A DNA stretch of 43,621 nucleotides from NCBI GenBank assembly GCA_903872425.1, contig CAIQKQ010000032.1, positions 1-43,621 on the forward strand. The letters are read 5' to 3'. The position numbers were made by a program, and so were the translations under genes. This document shows, one piece after another, positions 6,085-31,505 of the stretch (positions are counted from its first letter, which is position 1; each line of letters opens with the position of its first letter). The notes under the pieces were generated by a model that saw only the letters and a list, made by a program, of their open reading frames with translations, made no database searches and was not told where the DNA came from. The stretch comes from an uncultured Opitutia bacterium. Its GTDB lineage: Bacteria; Verrucomicrobiota; Verrucomicrobiia; Opitutales; Opitutaceae.

Positions 6085-9921
<3,837 letters not shown>

Positions 9922-13309: not shown

Positions 13310-14500
13310 TTACTCGATGATCTCGACAACAATACCCGATCCGATGGTGCGTCCACCCTCGCGGATAGCGAATTTCTGCTGTTTCTCCATCGCGATCGGC
13401 ACCTGCAGCTCGATTTCGACCTGCGTGTTGTCGCCCGGCATGATCATCTCGACGCCCTTCTGAAGGTTGACGACACCAGTCACATCCGTCGTACGGAAGT
13501 AGAACTGCGGACGGTAGCCGTTGAAGAACGGGGTGTGACGACCGCCCTCGTCCTTCGAGAGGACATAGATCTCGGCCTTGGCCTTCTTATGCGGGGTGAC
13601 TGACTTCGGAGCAGCGAGCACTTGGCCGCGCTCAATGGCGTCCTTCTCAATACCGCGCAGTAGAATACCGACGTTGTCGCCCGCTTGACCGCTATCGAGC
13701 AGCTTACGGAACATCTCAATACCGGTGACGACGGAGGTCGTGGTGTCCTTGAGGCCGACGATCTCAACCGTATCGTTGACCTTGATGACGCCGCGCTCAA
13801 TACGACCCGTGGCGACGGTGCCGCGGCCGGTGATGGAGAACACATCCTCAACGGACATCAGGAACGACTTGTCCATCTCACGGACGGGCTCGGCAATCTC
13901 TGAGTCAATGGCGTCCATCAGCTCGGCGAAGGCCTTTTCGCCCTCAGGCTTGCCTTCCAGACCCGCGGTGGCAGAACCGCGGATAATCTTGGCGTTGTCG
14001 CCGTCGAATTTGTATTTGTTGAGCAACTCGCGAATTTCCATCTCGACGAGGTCGAGCAGCTCCGGGTCGTCAATGAGGTCAACTTTATTGAGGAACACCA
14101 CAATCTTCGGAACGCCGACTTGGCGGGCGAGGAGGATGTGCTCGCGGGTCTGCGGCATCGGGCCGTCAGCCGCGCTGACAACGAGAATCGCGCCGTCCAT
14201 CTGGGCGGCGCCCGTGATCATGTTCTTGACGAAGTCGGCGTGGCCAGGGCAGTCCACGTGCGCATAGTGACGTTTAGCGGTCTCATACTCCACGTGCGCG
14301 ACCGCGATAGTGACGGTCTTGGTGGCATCGCGCACGGTACCGCCCTTCGCGATGTCAGAATAGGCCTTGACCTCAGCGAGACCTTTGCGGGCCTGCACCG
14401 CGAGGATCGCGGCGGTCGTGGTCGTCTTGCCGTGGTCGATGTGGCCGATGGTGCCAACGTTGACGTGCGGTTTTTTGCGTTCGAATGTGCCTTTAGCCAT
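13310..14500 (-). CDS. tuf: Elongation factor Tu
   Basis: EF-Tu delivers aminoacyl-tRNA to the ribosome as a GTP complex. The 396 residues are standard. The G-domain motifs are GHIDHGKTT (P-loop, about 18-26), the switch region with [32 protein letters not shown] (about 82-93) and NKVDLIDD. Domains 2 and 3 follow with [19 protein letters not shown] and the C-terminal [16 protein letters not shown]. The switch I segment reads [10 protein letters not shown] where E. coli has GAARAFDQ, a variant I cannot weigh without an alignment. It lies 67 nt after tRNA-Thr and 88 nt before tRNA-Trp. Confidence 0.98.
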
Positions 14501-14567
14501 GTGAGTATGGGACGGGTTGGATGTTGGGAGTTGGGAAAAGTAAGAGAGAAGATGAGGTGATCTGACC

Positions 14568-14643
14568 TGGAGCCCAGAACCGGATTCGAACCGGCGACCT
14601 CGTCCTTACCAAGGACGTGCTCTGCCAACTGAGCTATCTGGGC
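14568..14643 (-). tRNA. tRNA-Thr (anticodon GGT)
   Basis: The 76-nt minus-strand cloverleaf has acceptor GCCCAGA / TCTGGGC, D-arm TAGCTCAGTTGGCAGAGC, anticodon stem CGTCC / GGACG around loop TTGGTAA, T-arm GGTTCGAATCC, discriminator T and encoded CCA. It is the first gene of the tuf-rpoC block. A TTGACG box about 65 nt upstream (14708-14713, minus) could be its -35 element, but no good -10 is found at normal spacing. Confidence 0.97.
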
Positions 14644-14761: not shown

Positions 14762-15490
14762 TCAGGGCGCAATGCGAAAAACGTACGTGCCAGGCGGTAG
14801 CCGCTCCCCCACCCGCTCGACCCGTGCGAGGCGGTCACGAAAATATCGATTTACCTCCGCCAAGCCAGAACTGTGCAAGACGACCAATCCGCCCACCAAA
14901 CCAGCCGGCGAAATCGTCCCGATCAGCTCAAATGGCTCCCACGTACCAGAAGGCCCGGCTGATGAATCTAGCAACTCCATCTGTAAAACCGGCTGACTGC
15001 CACTGGTCGGTACGACGGCAACCGCCGCGATGCGCGCAGCGAGGGGAGCTGCCACAAGATCGCTCCGGCTGAGGGCGAGCGGCGTGGCCTCTGGCTGCTC
15101 AGTCAGCGCCAGCGCCTGCACCAAGTCGGTTGGCGGTGGATCGAGACTTCGAAATTTCAAACTCGCCGGTCCCTCGGCCACTGACAGCATCTTGGGCGGA
15201 AACTCCCGGCCCAGTGCCAGCGCGTCAGGCCGGGGCGAACTACTGGACCGGTCCGTGGCTCCGCGTGCCGGCTGATACAACGCGGCCGCGCCGTGCACGG
15301 CCCACCATTGCCGCCACAGCTCTGCCTCCTGCGGAGAGGAAGGTAAAATCAGCGCGAAATTTGGTGCGCGGCCGGCCGTGTTTTTCGGCGATGGCGGACC
15401 AGGCAGCTTCATCCCGGCCATCAGGCCGAAGCAGGTGATCGCTGTCCCGAGACCGACCACCAACCAGGGGAAATTTGCCCGCGTATGCAT
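14762..15490 (-). CDS. TonB-like single-pass periplasmic protein in ExbBD operon
   Basis: This is a 242-residue protein with a short N-terminus, one membrane segment (about residues 9-26, WLVVGLGTAITCFGLMAG) and a Pro/Ser-rich periplasmic stretch. Its C-terminal region (about 187-242) reads FELIGTISPAGLVGGLVVL, then HSSGLAEVNRYFRDRL, then LPPGTYVFRIAP. The pattern of two strands, a Ser-Ser-Gly turn, a helix and a final strand resembles a TonB C-terminal domain (compare v.VSSSG..elD.aa). Similarity is by eye only, and typical TonB Pro-Lys repeats are missing. It lies 12 nt downstream of exbD in the same operon, which supports a TonB role: carrying ExbBD energy to an outer-membrane partner. Confidence 0.7.
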   Translation of the reverse strand: MHTRANFPWLVVGLGTAITCFGLMAGMKLPGPPSPKNTAGRAPNFALILPSSPQEAELWRQWWAVHGAAALYQPARGATDRSSSSPRPDALALGREFPPKMLSVAEGPASLKFRSLDPPPTDLVQALALTEQPEATPLALSRSDLVAAPLAARIAAVAVVPTSGSQPVLQMELLDSSAGPSGTWEPFELIGTISPAGLVGGLVVLHSSGLAEVNRYFRDRLARVERVGERLPPGTYVFRIAP

Positions 15491-15502
15491 GCGAAGCTCC
15501 GC

Positions 15503-15961
15503 TCATTTTCCGCCCGCCGGCTGGGCGGCAAGCTGGATGGTGTAGCCTGCGGCCGTAGCCATGGCGGTTATTTTCAATAAATCCTCCTCGGTTAGGCTGC
15601 GGTCGCCCTCGATCAGCAGTCGCAAATTTTTTCGGCCGCGGAGCTGGCTCTGGTTCGCCAGCCAGGCTGGCAGCTCGTTCAGCCGTAGCACGCCGGTGTC
15701 CACCATAATTGCCTGGGCGCTACGAACCGTGATGGCCACATCTGTCGGCCGCGCTCCGGCCACTGCACCAGCCATCGTCGGAAGATCGACCGCCGCGCCT
15801 CGGCCCGCCAATGATATCACCAGCCCTGGCGCAACGACGAAGCGCGAGCCGAAGAGACTAAAAAACAATACGAGCAGCGCGACGTTTACATAGAACAGCG
15901 CGTCGTGCGCGACTGGCAATGGCCGCAATTTGGCGGTGAGATTGAGCGGACGGACGGTCAC
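15503..15961 (-). CDS. ExbD/TolR-family protein, atypical membrane residue
   Basis: A 152-residue protein with ExbD layout: a short cytoplasmic N-terminus, one membrane helix (about 21-37, LFYVNVALLVLFFSLF) and a periplasmic domain (about 45-150). ExbD and TolR normally carry a proton-relaying Asp in a motif like PLIDVVLVLL; here the aligned residue is Asn26 (codon 15886-15884). The nearest acidic residue is Asp20, just outside the helix. The ATG overlaps the exbB stop by 4 nt (ATGA), so translation is coupled. The pairing with ExbB makes the family call firm, but proton-driven activity is uncertain without the Asp. Confidence 0.8.
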   Translation of the reverse strand: MTVRPLNLTAKLRPLPVAHDALFYVNVALLVLFFSLFGSRFVVAPGLVISLAGRGAAVDLPTMAGAVAGARPTDVAITVRSAQAIMVDTGVLRLNELPAWLANQSQLRGRKNLRLLIEGDRSLTEEDLLKITAMATAAGYTIQLAAQPAGGK

Positions 15962-16653
15962 GGTCGGCCCTCCTTCTGCTCAACTGTCGGGGGCAGTGCG
16001 CGATACTCCGTCAACAAATATCCCATGATATCATTGGCTGCCCATTCAATATCGTCAACCACCGCTCGTACCCGACTGGCCAGAAAATGCTGCGCTACGC
16101 GCGCCAGCATGGCGAGCGCAAGGCTGCCCGCGGTGCTAAGCAACGCCTGCCACATCCCATGCGCCAGAGCGGTGGCCGTCTGATACTCGACTCCGCCCGT
16201 GGCAAAATCGTTAAACGTCGCCGCCATCCCCAGCACCGTGCCAAGTAGACCAACCAATGGTGCGAGTTGCGCGATGGTCGCAACTGCGCCGAGCCGTTGT
16301 TCCAGGGCCGGCAGACCCAGGATCGCCGCCTCCTGCACCGCGTGGCGCAATTGCGCCTCGTCGTCCTCCGCATGCCGTAACGCCGCCTTCACCACGGCCG
16401 CCACCGGGCCGGGCGTCTCCTCGCACACACCCAGCGCCTCGGCCAGTCGGCGTTTAGCCAGGATGTTTTTCACCCCGGCGACAAACTCCCGCACACGAAT
16501 ACGCGCGCGGTGCAGGTAAAACACTCGTTCGGCCACAAGCACCACTATCGCGGAGCCCATCAGCAACAGCACCCACAGCATCGGGCCGCCACTGGAGAGC
16601 AGGCTGGGCGTGGCGGAGGTGGTCTGAGGAAGAGTGGCGGCAGCGAGGAACAC
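15958..16653 (-). CDS. MotA/TolQ/ExbB proton channel family protein
   Basis: A 231-residue inner-membrane protein with three predicted helices: about 24-45 (PMLWVLLLMGSAIVVLVAERV), about 122-147 (IAQLAPLVGLLGTVLGMAATF) and about 167-190 (MWQALLSTAGSLALAMLARV). The second holds the family hallmark PLVGLLGTVLGM, and the conserved Thr of helix 3 is present (LLSTAG). The chosen start is GTG at 16653; ATG at codon 25 is too late because it removes the part before helix 1. It follows the TPR gene by 52 nt and overlaps exbD by 4 nt. Expected role: stator ring coupled to ExbD. Confidence 0.9.
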   Translation of the reverse strand: MFLAAATLPQTTSATPSLLSSGGPMLWVLLLMGSAIVVLVAERVFYLHRARIRVREFVAGVKNILAKRRLAEALGVCEETPGPVAAVVKAALRHAEDDEAQLRHAVQEAAILGLPALEQRLGAVATIAQLAPLVGLLGTVLGMAATFNDFATGGVEYQTATALAHGMWQALLSTAGSLALAMLARVAQHFLASRVRAVVDDIEWAANDIMGYLLTEYRALPPTVEQKEGRP

Positions 16654-16705
16654 GGTGTTTTTGAAAAAGTTTTTTGGGCGGGGGGCAAATGTCGAAATAC
16701 AATCG

Positions 16706-19378
16706 TCATTTTTGCGGCGACCCGCCTCGGAGTGTGTCGCGGCGCGCGGCGGCCAACTTGGCCGAGGGCAGGCCGTGGCTTACGATATACGCGAACGCGC
16801 CCAATGCCTCCTCCCGGCGGCCTTGCTCGACGAGCAGCTCGGCGCGGCGCGTAAGTGCGCGATCTAACCAATAACGTCCCGTCACGCCCAACGCGGGGGC
16901 TTGGTCGGATGCGACAGGCAGAAAGGTCCGGCCGAGCGCAAACCACGTTTCGTCGGCCTTGTCCTTATCCCCCTGCTCAAGCTGGAGTTCACCGAGCTTG
17001 CAGCCGGCCTCAACTCGCACGTCAGGATCAGCCCCGTCCTGATATTGCAGCTGGGCGTAGATCGAGCGCGCGTTCTCCATCTGGCGGAGCCCGTGGTGGA
17101 CATCGGCCAGCGCGAGCCGGATGCGCTGTGCCTCGCTGTGTTGGGCATAATCCTTGAGGAGCAGCTCATAAATTTGCTGCGCCTGCGGACGCTGGCCGAG
17201 CTCCTGATACAGCTCGGCCTGTTTCCTACGCGCCAAAAACCCGAGCTCACCGCCGGCGTAATTTTTATTGTTGAACAGCGGGTCCAGCATTTCGAGCGCG
17301 TTGTTGAGGTTAATCTCCTGTCCGCGGCCGGCCTCGAGCACGGCTTTCTGGTAAAGCGCGAGCGGCGCATAGGTTTTGTTGTCGGGAAAGTTCTCAGCCA
17401 GGCGCGTGAGCAGTCCCTGCGCCTCGGCGATCTGGTCGCGGCCGGGGCTGGCGAAATAATCGGCCCCGACCAAATACGAGTCCATTGCGGCTTCTGACTT
17501 GGGATGCTCGGTGCGCAGCCGCTCCATCAATTCGAGTGCCGCCTTGTCGCGTGCGGTCTCAGCTGCCTTGTCGCCCGGCACAACGGCCAGCGCGAAAGTC
17601 GCGCGTGCCTGTAGGAGCAGCGCATGCGCGGCAATTTCCTCGCGGGCCTCCGGCCGCAGGCCAGCCAAATCCTTGACCGCGTCGTGTAACGACTGAGCGA
17701 GCGCCCGCGCCCGCTCCGCCGCGCCGGTGTCGAGCGCAAGCCGCGCCTGCAGCCAGCCCATCTGCGCGCGCAGCTCGGGGGGAAAGCCGCCCGTTGTGCC
17801 GCCGTCGGCCAGCAGCCGGTCCACGCGGGCCAGCGCACGGGCGAGATTTTGCGCCCGCTCAGGCTCGGTACCTGGCGCAGTCTGGAGCGCCTTGGCCAGA
17901 TTCCACTCGGCCTGCCATCGGTTGGCCGGATCGAGGGTCCCGCTGCCAGAAAAACTATCTAGCAGGCGTCCTGCCTCCTCGTGCTGCCCGGCTTTGGTCA
18001 TCGCCAGCACGCGTTGAAAAATCAGGTCGCTTGGCGAAATCCCGACCGGCCGCTCGGCAAAGGCTTTCTCATAAGCGCTGGCCGCACTCTTAAACAGCGC
18101 GCTATCGCCAGCGGTTTCACCCGCGCGAAAGAGCGCTTCGCCCTGCAGCACACCGAGCGCAGCATGCAGCTCCTTCTCGGTCGCCAGTAACGCGACCCGC
18201 GCCTTGTCCGCAAAATCGGCGGCCTCACGATAATGCTTCAGTTCCCAGGCCACTGCGAGCCGCACGCCCAGCGCGGCCGCCGTGAGTTTCGAGCCGTTAA
18301 ATCGCTCGAGCAGTTTGCGCGCGTCGGCGTCAGCGGCAGCAAATCGCGGCTCGTCCTCATTGAGCGACAATTGCGCACGCGCCAGCAACAATTCCTCCAG
18401 CAACGGATGCGGCGGCTGCTCTGGTGGGGTGATGAGTCCGTCGAGCCGCAGGCGCAATAGCTCGCGTGCCGGTCCGTCTGTCGAGGCGGCCGTGAGCAAC
18501 TGCAACGCCGCCTGCTGCTGGCTGCGGTTGTCCCCGTCGGCCAACAAGTCCTCAAGTGCCACGCGACCCGCACCTTCCCGCGCCCCTGCACCCACGCCGA
18601 GCAGAAAGCGGTAGTTGTCCCGCTCCGCACGCTGCCCTGCCGTCGGAGCCGCCGGCAAAGCGCGCAATTGCGCTTGTAAAAACGCCACCGCGTCCGCCGA
18701 CCGCCTGAGCGCGAAAAGCTCTGTTGCATATTCTCGCGCGGCCAAATGCCCGGTGCTCTTGCCCGCGTCGCGTCGCGCCGTGCCCAACAACTCGGCCGCC
18801 TTCGCCTCGCTCACCTCACCGGCCGCCAACCTTGTCTGGTCGCGCGCAACGATGATGCGCGCCCGCTGCGGCTCCGACACCGCCGCGTCCGCAGCCTTCC
18901 CGTAAGCCGCTAGTGCGCGGGTTAGATGCTGCGCGTCCTTATCGGCGTCGGCCACCATGCCTTGTAAAAAATAAAACCACGCGCGCTCGTCCGCCGGCAG
19001 CGTGCCCGGCGTGATCGCGTCCAGTTCCGTCCTGGCCGTATCTCCTCGGCCCTGACGCGCCGCAATCAGGCCGGCACGTAGGTGCCACGCGGCGGGTCGC
19101 GCCGCGCTGTGCAGTTGTAACGCTCGCGCGGCCGCAGTGGTGTCGCCTTGGTTGAGCCGCGCCGACACCAGGAGCAACACCACGGAGTCGCGCTCGGCTC
19201 CCGGTGCGGCCGGTACAGCCAGCCAACGCTCAAACATTGTGGCCGCCGTCGTCGGCTGCCCCGATTCCAGCGCGTTTTTCGCCACCAACAAATTCACCAG
19301 CGCTTCGCCCGGCGTGGGTCGTGTCGCTGGCGCTAGCGGCGCGTCCGGCTCCTGCGGTTCTGCCGCGCGCGCCGCCAC
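16706..19378 (-). CDS. Large TPR-repeat protein, periplasmic, first gene of ExbBD operon
   Basis: An 890-residue, Ala/Leu-rich helical protein with repeated helix pairs of TPR type throughout (for example FERWLAVPAAPGAERD, AQQIYELLLKDYAQHSEAQ, ARSIYAQLQYQDGADPD). The last third best resembles tol-pal-associated/YbgF-like TPRs. From the GTG at 19378 the product starts MAARAAEPQEPDAP, with no signal peptide. Extending the frame upstream gives ATG ATG at 19420-19415 encoding MMLRSLVSL, then TAG at 19393-19391, then LAAAVAARA-AEP, a near-perfect signal peptide broken by one stop. Either the gene is damaged, the base call is wrong, or the stop is read through. It heads the operon with exbB, exbD and the TonB-like gene and is divergent from lemA. 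Exact function is unknown. Confidence 0.8.
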   Translation of the reverse strand: MAARAAEPQEPDAPLAPATRPTPGEALVNLLVAKNALESGQPTTAATMFERWLAVPAAPGAERDSVVLLLVSARLNQGDTTAAARALQLHSAARPAAWHLRAGLIAARQGRGDTARTELDAITPGTLPADERAWFYFLQGMVADADKDAQHLTRALAAYGKAADAAVSEPQRARIIVARDQTRLAAGEVSEAKAAELLGTARRDAGKSTGHLAAREYATELFALRRSADAVAFLQAQLRALPAAPTAGQRAERDNYRFLLGVGAGAREGAGRVALEDLLADGDNRSQQQAALQLLTAASTDGPARELLRLRLDGLITPPEQPPHPLLEELLLARAQLSLNEDEPRFAAADADARKLLERFNGSKLTAAALGVRLAVAWELKHYREAADFADKARVALLATEKELHAALGVLQGEALFRAGETAGDSALFKSAASAYEKAFAERPVGISPSDLIFQRVLAMTKAGQHEEAGRLLDSFSGSGTLDPANRWQAEWNLAKALQTAPGTEPERAQNLARALARVDRLLADGGTTGGFPPELRAQMGWLQARLALDTGAAERARALAQSLHDAVKDLAGLRPEAREEIAAHALLLQARATFALAVVPGDKAAETARDKAALELMERLRTEHPKSEAAMDSYLVGADYFASPGRDQIAEAQGLLTRLAENFPDNKTYAPLALYQKAVLEAGRGQEINLNNALEMLDPLFNNKNYAGGELGFLARRKQAELYQELGQRPQAQQIYELLLKDYAQHSEAQRIRLALADVHHGLRQMENARSIYAQLQYQDGADPDVRVEAGCKLGELQLEQGDKDKADETWFALGRTFLPVASDQAPALGVTGRYWLDRALTRRAELLVEQGRREEALGAFAYIVSHGLPSAKLAAARRDTLRGGSPQK

Positions 19379-19572
19379 TGCGGCGGCCAGCTACAGGGAA
19401 ACGAGCGAACGGAGCATCATAGGTGACGGTGAATAGACGTTGTGTCGGCTGCGAAGTTGCCCCGGGCGGTGGAAACAATCAACCGCGTTGTAATGACTTC
19501 CTCCTCGCGCCCTGACCTCTGACTCGCACACTCATCACTGTACCAGACCGCACCAACCTTCCTCATTCCACC

Positions 19573-29321: not shown

Positions 29322-31505
29322 TTGAGCGACGCATCTAAATCCAAAGTCCAAGCCGCCACCCAACCGTTGGCGCCGAATTTCCTTGCCGGAGCGATCTGCG
29401 CGCTCATGACCCTCGCCTATGCGAGCGGCTTCGCGACGCTGATTTTCGGCGGCACGCTCGCGCCGCACTCGGGACAGGCGGTGCTGGCAGCCATCGTGGG
29501 CAGTTGCGTGACCATTTTGGTTTTGTCGTGGCGGAGCTCGTTTGTCTTCGCGATGGGTGGGCCTGACTCAAACCCGTCGGCCATCCTGGCTGTCACGGTC
29601 GCGGCGATTGCGGCGGAGATTGGACGGGGCGCGGGCGGCCCGGAATCGGCGGACTTGTTGCCGACGGTGCTACTGTTTCTGTTCATCGCCGCCTCGGGTT
29701 GCGGGCTTATCCTGTATTTTTTGGGCCAATGGCATTGGGGGCGGTATGTGCGTTATATCCCGTATCCGGTGGTGGGCGGTTTTCTGGTCGGCACGGGGTT
29801 TCTGCTCGTGTCCGGTGGCTGGAAAATGCTGGTGGGCGCGTCACCCACGCATACGACCTGGCCGCTCGTCGCGGCCGTGCCGCCGCTGGCGTGGGCGTCG
29901 GCCGCCGTCGTGGCGGCGACGCTACTGGTGTTGATGCGCGTGTCGAAACATTTCATGGTGATTCCGGCGGTGATTTTCGGCGCGGTTTTGCTGTTTCACG
30001 CGGCACTGGCACTGGGTGGAACCAACCTCGCAGCCGCGCAGGCGTCGGGCCTACTGCTTCGCCCGCTGTCAGTCGGCACATGGAGCCAGCCATTCAACTT
30101 AGCGTGGGACCATGTGCGCTGGGACCTGATTGTAGCGCACGCTAACGATTTCGCGGCGATGACGATGGTTGTGGTCGTCACGATTTTACTCAACGCCACG
30201 AGTCTTGACCACGCGACCGGGCAGGATGCGGACTTCGATCGCGAGCTTAAGGCGCTCGGGCTGGCTAATTTTCTGAGCGGTCTCTCAGGCGGACTCGTGG
30301 CGGTCAATTCGTTCAACCGCAGCCTGCTCAATCTCCGCGCCGGGGCCAACTCGCCTTGGGCCGGCCGAGTGTGTGTGGCGCTGGTGCTGCTGCTTACATT
30401 GCTCGCTCCCGGCGCGGTTGCGCTACTGCCCAAACCCGTGCTCACAGGACTGATCCTTTATCTCGGTGTGTCCTTACTGGTGCAATGGCTGTGGGACAGC
30501 CGGCGCGAGATGCCGCGTGGAGATTATCTAACGATGGTGGCTATTCTCGCGATAGTAGCGGGTTTCGGCATCGTGCCCGGCGTACTGCTGGGCGTGGTAT
30601 TCTCCATGGTCAGTTTCGTGGTGACGTTCAGCCGCACCTCGGTCGTGAAACACCGCTTCAATGGCGCCGCACGCCGCTCGAACGTCGAGCGTCCACCGCA
30701 GGAAATGGATTGGCTGCGCGGCCATGGCGAGCATCTCCAAGGCGCGGTGTTCCAAGGCTACCTGTTCTTCGGCACCGCCACCGCCGTGCTCGACCAACTG
30801 CGCGACGTCCCCGGTAAGGCGCGAGTGCTGCTGTTGGATTTTTGGCATGTACGTGGGATTGACGCCTCATCCGTCATGGTCATGCGTAAGCTCCTCAAGC
30901 TTTGCGCCGATGCGAAAACTCAAGTGGTGTTCACCGGCGTGTCGCTCGCGTTGCGGGATAAAATGCTAGCTAGCGGACTCGACATCGCACGCAGCCCTGC
31001 GCGTCATTTTCCCGACCTCGACCGCGGCCTCGAATGGGCTGAGCAAACCGTCCTCAGCGAAGCCATTGCGCAAATCACCCTCGACCAGATGCTCGGCGGC
31101 CTCACGCCAGCCGAAACCGCGACGGTTGCCCGCCACTTTGTGGCCCAGACCACCGCCGAGGGCGAGACCTTCATCCGCAAAGGGGATGCCGGCGACGCGC
31201 TCTTTATCGTACTCAAGGGTCGGGTGAGTATCCAACTCGTACTCACTGGCTCCGATTTCCGCAAGCGACTCCGCACCTACGGCCCAGGCACCATCATTGG
31301 TGAAATGGGATTCTACAGCGGCGCGCCGCGCAGCGCAGACATCTGCGCGGATACCACGACCGAACTGCTGCGCATCACACGAGACAGTTTCGCTCAGCTG
31401 GAGTCAGAGGATCCTGTGCTCGCCGGAAAGTTGCACCGCCTCGTGATCAACGCCCTCTCGTCCCGCCTCCGCACCGCCAACGAGGCGCTAAGCGATTTAT
31501 TATAG
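29322..31505 (+). CDS. SulP/SLC26 anion transporter fused to STAS and cyclic-nucleotide-binding domains
   Basis: A 727-residue inner-membrane transporter. Residues about 18-440 are a SulP core of some 10-14 helices, with FAMGGPDSNPSAILAV (75-91) and GLANFLSGLSGGLVAVNSFNRSLLN (313-337, split by the helix turn). A STAS domain covers about 470-570 (VLLLDFWHVRGIDASS). A cNMP-binding domain covers about 605-720, with FIVLKGRVSI and the cassette GEMGFYSGAPRSADI (660-674), where Glu661 and Arg670 would bind ribose and phosphate. The start is a TTG at 29322; no ATG is available before the first helix. The substrate (sulfate, bicarbonate or another anion) cannot be read from sequence. It is divergent from the SPATA20-type gene. 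Confidence 0.92.
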   Translation: MSDASKSKVQAATQPLAPNFLAGAICALMTLAYASGFATLIFGGTLAPHSGQAVLAAIVGSCVTILVLSWRSSFVFAMGGPDSNPSAILAVTVAAIAAEIGRGAGGPESADLLPTVLLFLFIAASGCGLILYFLGQWHWGRYVRYIPYPVVGGFLVGTGFLLVSGGWKMLVGASPTHTTWPLVAAVPPLAWASAAVVAATLLVLMRVSKHFMVIPAVIFGAVLLFHAALALGGTNLAAAQASGLLLRPLSVGTWSQPFNLAWDHVRWDLIVAHANDFAAMTMVVVVTILLNATSLDHATGQDADFDRELKALGLANFLSGLSGGLVAVNSFNRSLLNLRAGANSPWAGRVCVALVLLLTLLAPGAVALLPKPVLTGLILYLGVSLLVQWLWDSRREMPRGDYLTMVAILAIVAGFGIVPGVLLGVVFSMVSFVVTFSRTSVVKHRFNGAARRSNVERPPQEMDWLRGHGEHLQGAVFQGYLFFGTATAVLDQLRDVPGKARVLLLDFWHVRGIDASSVMVMRKLLKLCADAKTQVVFTGVSLALRDKMLASGLDIARSPARHFPDLDRGLEWAEQTVLSEAIAQITLDQMLGGLTPAETATVARHFVAQTTAEGETFIRKGDAGDALFIVLKGRVSIQLVLTGSDFRKRLRTYGPGTIIGEMGFYSGAPRSADICADTTTELLRITRDSFAQLESEDPVLAGKLHRLVINALSSRLRTANEALSDLL

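Follow-up and report, generated by a model that had tools for sequence, protein, structure and literature searches.

In ExbD, TolR and MotB an aspartate counts as the ion-carrying residue that the motor family cannot do without, and the locus described here raises the question of how a conserved Ton/Tol-type complex is to be understood when this residue, the known proton carrier in Ton, Tol and Mot motors, has been replaced. The operon lies in a 43,621-nucleotide stretch of DNA (the window) from an uncultured Opitutia bacterium of the family Opitutaceae, and had been proposed in an earlier note, made from the letters alone, as a possible dedicated energy-transduction system.

All four ORFs were confirmed on the minus strand as the adjacent, same-direction genes that the earlier note had claimed, in the order TPR protein, ExbB, ExbD and a 242-aa transducer-like protein (Table 1). 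The ORFs of ExbB and ExbD share a 4-nt overlap, and the transducer gene starts 12 nt past the end of ExbD. The remark that no TonB-dependent receptor is near also agreed with the domain profile search, which gave no receptor domain in any of the 18 window proteins examined. Among the loci with enough sequence, tuf was located downstream of the operon in 44 of 117.

Table 1. Coordinates of the operon, of single sites within its genes, and of neighbouring features; positions are those of the window, and (-) marks the minus strand.
Feature	Position	Strand	Remarks
TPR gene	16706-19378	(-)	First gene; 890-aa periplasmic-type product
In-frame TAG	19391-19393	(-)	Within apparent signal peptide of the TPR gene
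ExbB/TolQ-type subunit gene	15958-16653	(-)	231 aa; assigned by Pfam and phylum-wide orthologs
ExbB pore position Thr139	16237-16239	(-)	Codon; Thr present in the window
ExbB pore position Thr174	16132-16134	(-)	Codon; Thr present in the window
ExbD/TolR-type subunit gene	15503-15961	(-)	152 aa; without the ion-carrying Asp
ExbD Asn26	15884-15886	(-)	Codon; corresponds to Asp25 of E. coli ExbD (alignment, survey)
Transducer-like protein gene	14762-15490	(-)	242 aa; assigned by model, fold matches and alignment
Transducer TM helix, residues 8-25	15416-15469	(-)	No His in the window
Transducer C-terminal domain, residues 152-242	14765-15037	(-)	Predicted beta-beta-beta-beta-alpha-beta (model)
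Genes directly downstream of the operon	13310-14643		tRNA-Thr, tuf, tRNA-Trp, nusG and ribosomal protein genes
SulP-type sulfate permease gene	29322-31505		STAS domain and fused C-terminal cyclic-nucleotide-binding domain

The proposal that the four genes form one unit was borne out by conserved gene order in relatives: the unit was present in 60 of the 61 family genomes, and a scattering of the genes among relatives, which the earlier note had named as the refuting case, did not occur. The ExbB search likewise gave an ortholog in 60 of the 61 family genomes, scoring far over all paralogs with a sharp gap (E<1e-48 versus approximately 1e-22 for the next paralogs). At these loci ExbB is flanked by the TPR and ExbD orthologs, and a transducer ortholog then follows in nearly all. 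The surveyed loci comprise Opitutaceae and other Verrucomicrobiota; with strict cut-offs, the ExbB profile matched 87/103 genomes of the order, 54/57 of the class sample, and 189/194 Verrucomicrobiota genomes. A long ORF, mostly of 800-1000 aa, immediately precedes ExbB in 96 of the 124 loci that could be judged. In four order-level loci (L126, L129, L135 and L147) no ExbD was detectable beside the ExbB ortholog, and in the Asp-type relative L012 a secreted-type ORF of 200 aa (6671-7270) is inserted between ExbB and ExbD.

Window ExbB is a member of the Pfam family MotA_ExbB (PF01618, 6e-23; 81.4 bits versus the curated cut-off of 22.9). The profile check for ExbD/TolR gave a divided answer, as the window protein itself matched PF02472 at 3e-4 with 21.4 bits, under the curated cut-off of 25.4, whereas all 30 aligned orthologs matched at E 0.01 or better (best 2e-14). 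The predicted structure of window ExbD consists of a single TM helix (residues 18-37) followed by secondary-structure elements in the order of ExbD periplasmic domains, and its top PDB matches were ExbD periplasmic domains, some with TonB peptides (best 8pek, 2.7e-5).

Asn26 is situated within an otherwise regular ExbD membrane motif, which reads FYVNVALLVLFF in the window, LVNVALLVLMFF in other loci, and LIDVLVMLVFF in paralogs; compared within the genome, the window motif is HDALFYVNVALLVLFF versus, for example, ELNLVPLIDVLVMLVFF in other ExbD proteins. At the 61 surveyed loci of the window's family, the position was occupied by Asn in 50, Ser in one and Asp in ten. Across the phylum, 171 loci divided into 80 with Asp and 91 Asp-less (78 Asn, 5 Ser, 4 Ala, 2 Gly, 1 Cys, 1 Val). 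The Asp-less ExbD recurs in about 50 genera, and at least 17 changes between the Asp and Asp-less states were counted on the ExbB tree. In the control, the Asp was kept by each of the 39 distinct further ExbD proteins checked from the window genome and family, two of them being scored by eye with an alignment gap at the Asp column; the window genome holds four further PF02472 matches, all with Asp.

It is very unlikely that the operon encodes an ordinary PMF-driven TonB/Tol system in which the missing Asp is inconsequential or misaligned. ExbB and the fold of ExbD plainly belong to the family, and Asp-type orthologs with a His-bearing transducer exist, as such a system would have it, but the occurrence of Asn in a regular ExbD motif in about 50 genera largely refutes this explanation by alignment. 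That the Asp is missing only through an alignment error was rejected on the same ground, the Asn standing in an otherwise regular helix in dozens of genera. Paralogy was also rejected as the main cause, since each family genome with the operon has one strong ExbB ortholog with the same neighbours.

In the model of the transducer-like protein, a TM helix at the N-terminus is joined by a linker of low confidence to a C-terminal domain with pLDDT mostly about 70-85. The TonB_C profile check put forward in the earlier note gave no support: no Pfam family was matched by any of 31 transducers (the window protein and 30 orthologs), hence not TonB_C (PF03544), and hhalign against same-family TonB C-terminal domains returned a probability of 4%, in the expected register. 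Assignment to TonB_C by sequence profile was thus rejected. In structure comparisons, the 12 best Foldseek matches were all TonB, TolA or close homologues, none of them reaching significance (E from 0.17 upwards), and the 22 leading rows of VIA-align were all TonB/TolA-type with Z from 7.2 down to 3.5, led by TolA (7.2) and TonB (6.1), and with no unrelated chain above Z 3.0. The predicted C-terminal fold therefore resembles TonB/TolA above all else, in line with the TonB-like end claimed from the sequence, and the lack of such a fold, foreseen as a refuting case, did not occur. With structural matches of this kind, no Pfam match and a weak profile, the domain is considered TonB/TolA-like by fold and not PF03544 by sequence; because the model is of moderate confidence and Z stays under 8, this is a fold resemblance rather than proven homology. 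Transducer orthologs share a short linker motif, DPTPLFLPT, after the TM helix (residues ~67-75; degenerate in the window), which by its position could be a candidate ExbD docking motif comparable to the TonB D-box (PMC10907165).

The motor-contact His of the transducer TM helix (SHLS motif) was absent in the window and in Asn-type family members, and present in most Asp-type orthologs. This mid-membrane residue missing from the window lineage matches TonB His20, and TonB(H20A) is inactive in E. coli (review PMC11658791). The His was scored in 52/67 Asp-type versus 6/72 Asp-less loci; some Asp-less lineages keep it, and in 15 Asp-type loci it was scored as absent, in at least one case (L128) only because the scored segment was shifted. 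In ExbB, the pore columns were located by motif, and the first and second pore positions (Thr139 and Thr174) are taken here to be E. coli T148 and T181, respectively. The first Thr was kept in 87/91 Asp-less loci and nearly everywhere overall. The second position was Thr or Ser in 80/80 Asp-type versus 61/91 Asp-less loci, that is, its hydroxyl was lost in 30 of the 91.

Raw Fisher tests of Asp loss against the His and the second pore hydroxyl gave 1e-17 and 6e-10, respectively, values that shared ancestry inflates. When pairs were chosen to be phylogenetically independent, His changed in the same direction as Asp in 3.8 versus 1.2 in the opposite direction, and the pore hydroxyl in 2.1 versus 0, neither being significant. 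There are too few such pairs to prove statistically that Asp was lost together with His or the pore Thr, and only an association is claimed.

In close Asp-less pairs, dN/dS was about 0.02-0.2 for ExbB and about 0.03-0.3 for ExbD, with similar values in Asp-type pairs (simple Nei-Gojobori counts, dS often near saturation). These low ratios indicate that the genes are maintained and not decaying. The TPR gene of the window has a peculiarity of its own. In the profile search suggested earlier, its product matched Pfam TPR_6 (6e-8) and NCBIfam tol_pal_ybgF (1e-9). The natural start is probably the ATG at 19420, from which the reading is MMLRSLVSL*LAAAVAARAAEPQ, interrupted by the single TAG. This TAG is either a true nonsense codon, in which case translation would start at a GTG and the signal peptide would be missing, or a mistake in the assembly; in the same-genus relative L071 the TPR signal peptide is intact. 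Although a stop in the signal-peptide region would suit an operon that is a decaying relic in the Asp-less lineages, such decay is extremely improbable in view of the low dN/dS of Asp-less pairs, the intact four-gene order across the family, and the undamaged signal peptide of the relative. For the clade as a whole, decay was refuted by dN/dS and conservation.

The best reading of the locus is that a Ton/Tol-type envelope complex gave up or changed its proton drive, and the machine probably runs without the ordinary proton drive or in an unfamiliar way. Of the energy-transduction system first proposed, the Ton/Tol-type parts hold, and the straightforward drive is not supported, with Asn for Asp and the His missing. 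With a probability of roughly 0.5, the ordinary proton drive was lost in the window and in other lineages, and a selected structural or regulated membrane link remains. In such a complex, an ExbB pentamer would surround an ExbD dimer in a 5:2 assembly, the TonB/TolA-like linker protein would extend towards the outer membrane, and the TPR protein would act as periplasmic partner. Proton-driven rotation may have been abandoned in the window lineage, with ExbD Asp changed to Asn, the His lost from the TM helix of the linker protein, and the second ExbB pore Thr presumably free to vary, while selection would keep the assembly as a tether, structural or regulated, that ties the inner membrane, the cell wall and the outer membrane together. 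In more distant orthologs with Asp, His and Thr, proton drive probably persists. For the Verrucomicrobiota in general, the chances are about even that the motor was converted many times independently into a machine free of the canonical proton site, with a D25N-type change fixed, the His20 equivalent often lost, and strong purifying selection acting.

Against a lost drive stands the near-invariant Thr at the T148 position, since an idle pore would not be expected to preserve it. Its retention in 87 of the 91 Asp-less loci argues for the main rival, a tentative one, according to which the complex is still ion-driven in a non-canonical way, by another residue, by ordered water at the Asn, or in mixed complexes to which a canonical ExbD of another locus contributes the Asp. 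The low dN/dS, the four other Asp-bearing PF02472 matches of the window genome, and the replacements themselves, mostly Asn as a conservative choice and not a random mix, are in keeping with this. Reading of the alignments, however, gave no consistent replacement acidic residue in the ExbB and ExbD membrane segments of Asp-less members, by which a GldL-like relocation of the acidic residue was rejected and the rival weakened. In many Asp-less members the hydroxyl at the second pore position and the His of the transducer are gone as well, and ExbD(D25N) is inactive in E. coli (review PMC11658791).

The process served by the complex is a separate matter, compatible with the loss of the ordinary drive preferred here as well as with a non-canonical one. 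Ordinary nutrient uptake had been doubted from the start, and upkeep of the outer membrane or cell wall is favoured over it by the TPR partner, the TolA-like end and the scarcity of TolB in the family. TolB_N, searched with one domain model, was detected in 2/21 family genomes and not in the window genome (85% complete); its lack of detection in the other 19 fits such maintenance and is no proof of it. It is possible, at less than even odds, that the operon is the Verrucomicrobiota counterpart of Tol-Pal, with a CpoB-like TPR partner and a role in outer-membrane constriction or integrity. The tol_pal_ybgF match of the TPR protein (1e-9), TolA as best structural match of the transducer C-terminal domain, and the 19 of 21 genomes with TolB_N undetected point in this direction, but no TolB or Pal gene is found alongside the operon, the TPR matches are unspecific, the TolB search comprised one domain model only, and the missing Asp is left unexplained.

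A conserved complex in which the Asp was replaced many times offers natural material on which Ton/Tol parts matter without proton drive, and also on whether a second coupling mechanism exists. The findings point to an envelope system that spans the phylum, has not been described before, and occurs in bacteria with TolB mostly undetected. A natural Asp-less ExbD family was not found described in the literature searched, which mostly excluded subscription journals, and a description may exist elsewhere.

Among known systems, GldL-GldM, to which the complex here is likened, is presumably a 5:2 type motor with a drive independent of the ExbD-type Asp. GldL bears an acidic residue of its own, whereas window-type ExbB shows no consistent new one. 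A PVC-group cluster consisting of TPR, tolQ-like, two tolR-like and vWA transducer genes, as described in PMC12204202, shares the phylum group and the TPR-TolQ-TolR order; the operon here differs in one ExbD instead of two and in a TonB/TolA-like end instead of vWA, no Pfam vWA domain being matched by the window transducer or its orthologs. In the passages of that source considered here, the motor-contact His is retained in the vWA cluster and the Asp in a second vWA family, and a missing Asp goes unmentioned. The window genome carries, on another contig, a separate canonical ExbB-ExbD-ExbD-TonB set (L006 and own contig C209), followed by a 376-aa TPR-like-looking ORF, and motor and TPR thus meet there too. 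In comparison with the Ton system, the operon lacks the Asp of the ExbD helix, the His of the transducer helix, a Pfam TonB_C match and a nearby receptor, begins with a TPR gene, and shares the ExbB family, the fold and topology of ExbD, a single-pass linker with a TonB/TolA-like end, and the operon order. In comparison with TolQ-TolR-TolA and CpoB, the TPR gene comes first and encodes ~890 aa, TolB and Pal are absent from the operon, and Asp and His are missing, while the subunit types and the TPR partner are shared and the structural comparison ranks domain III of TolA first.
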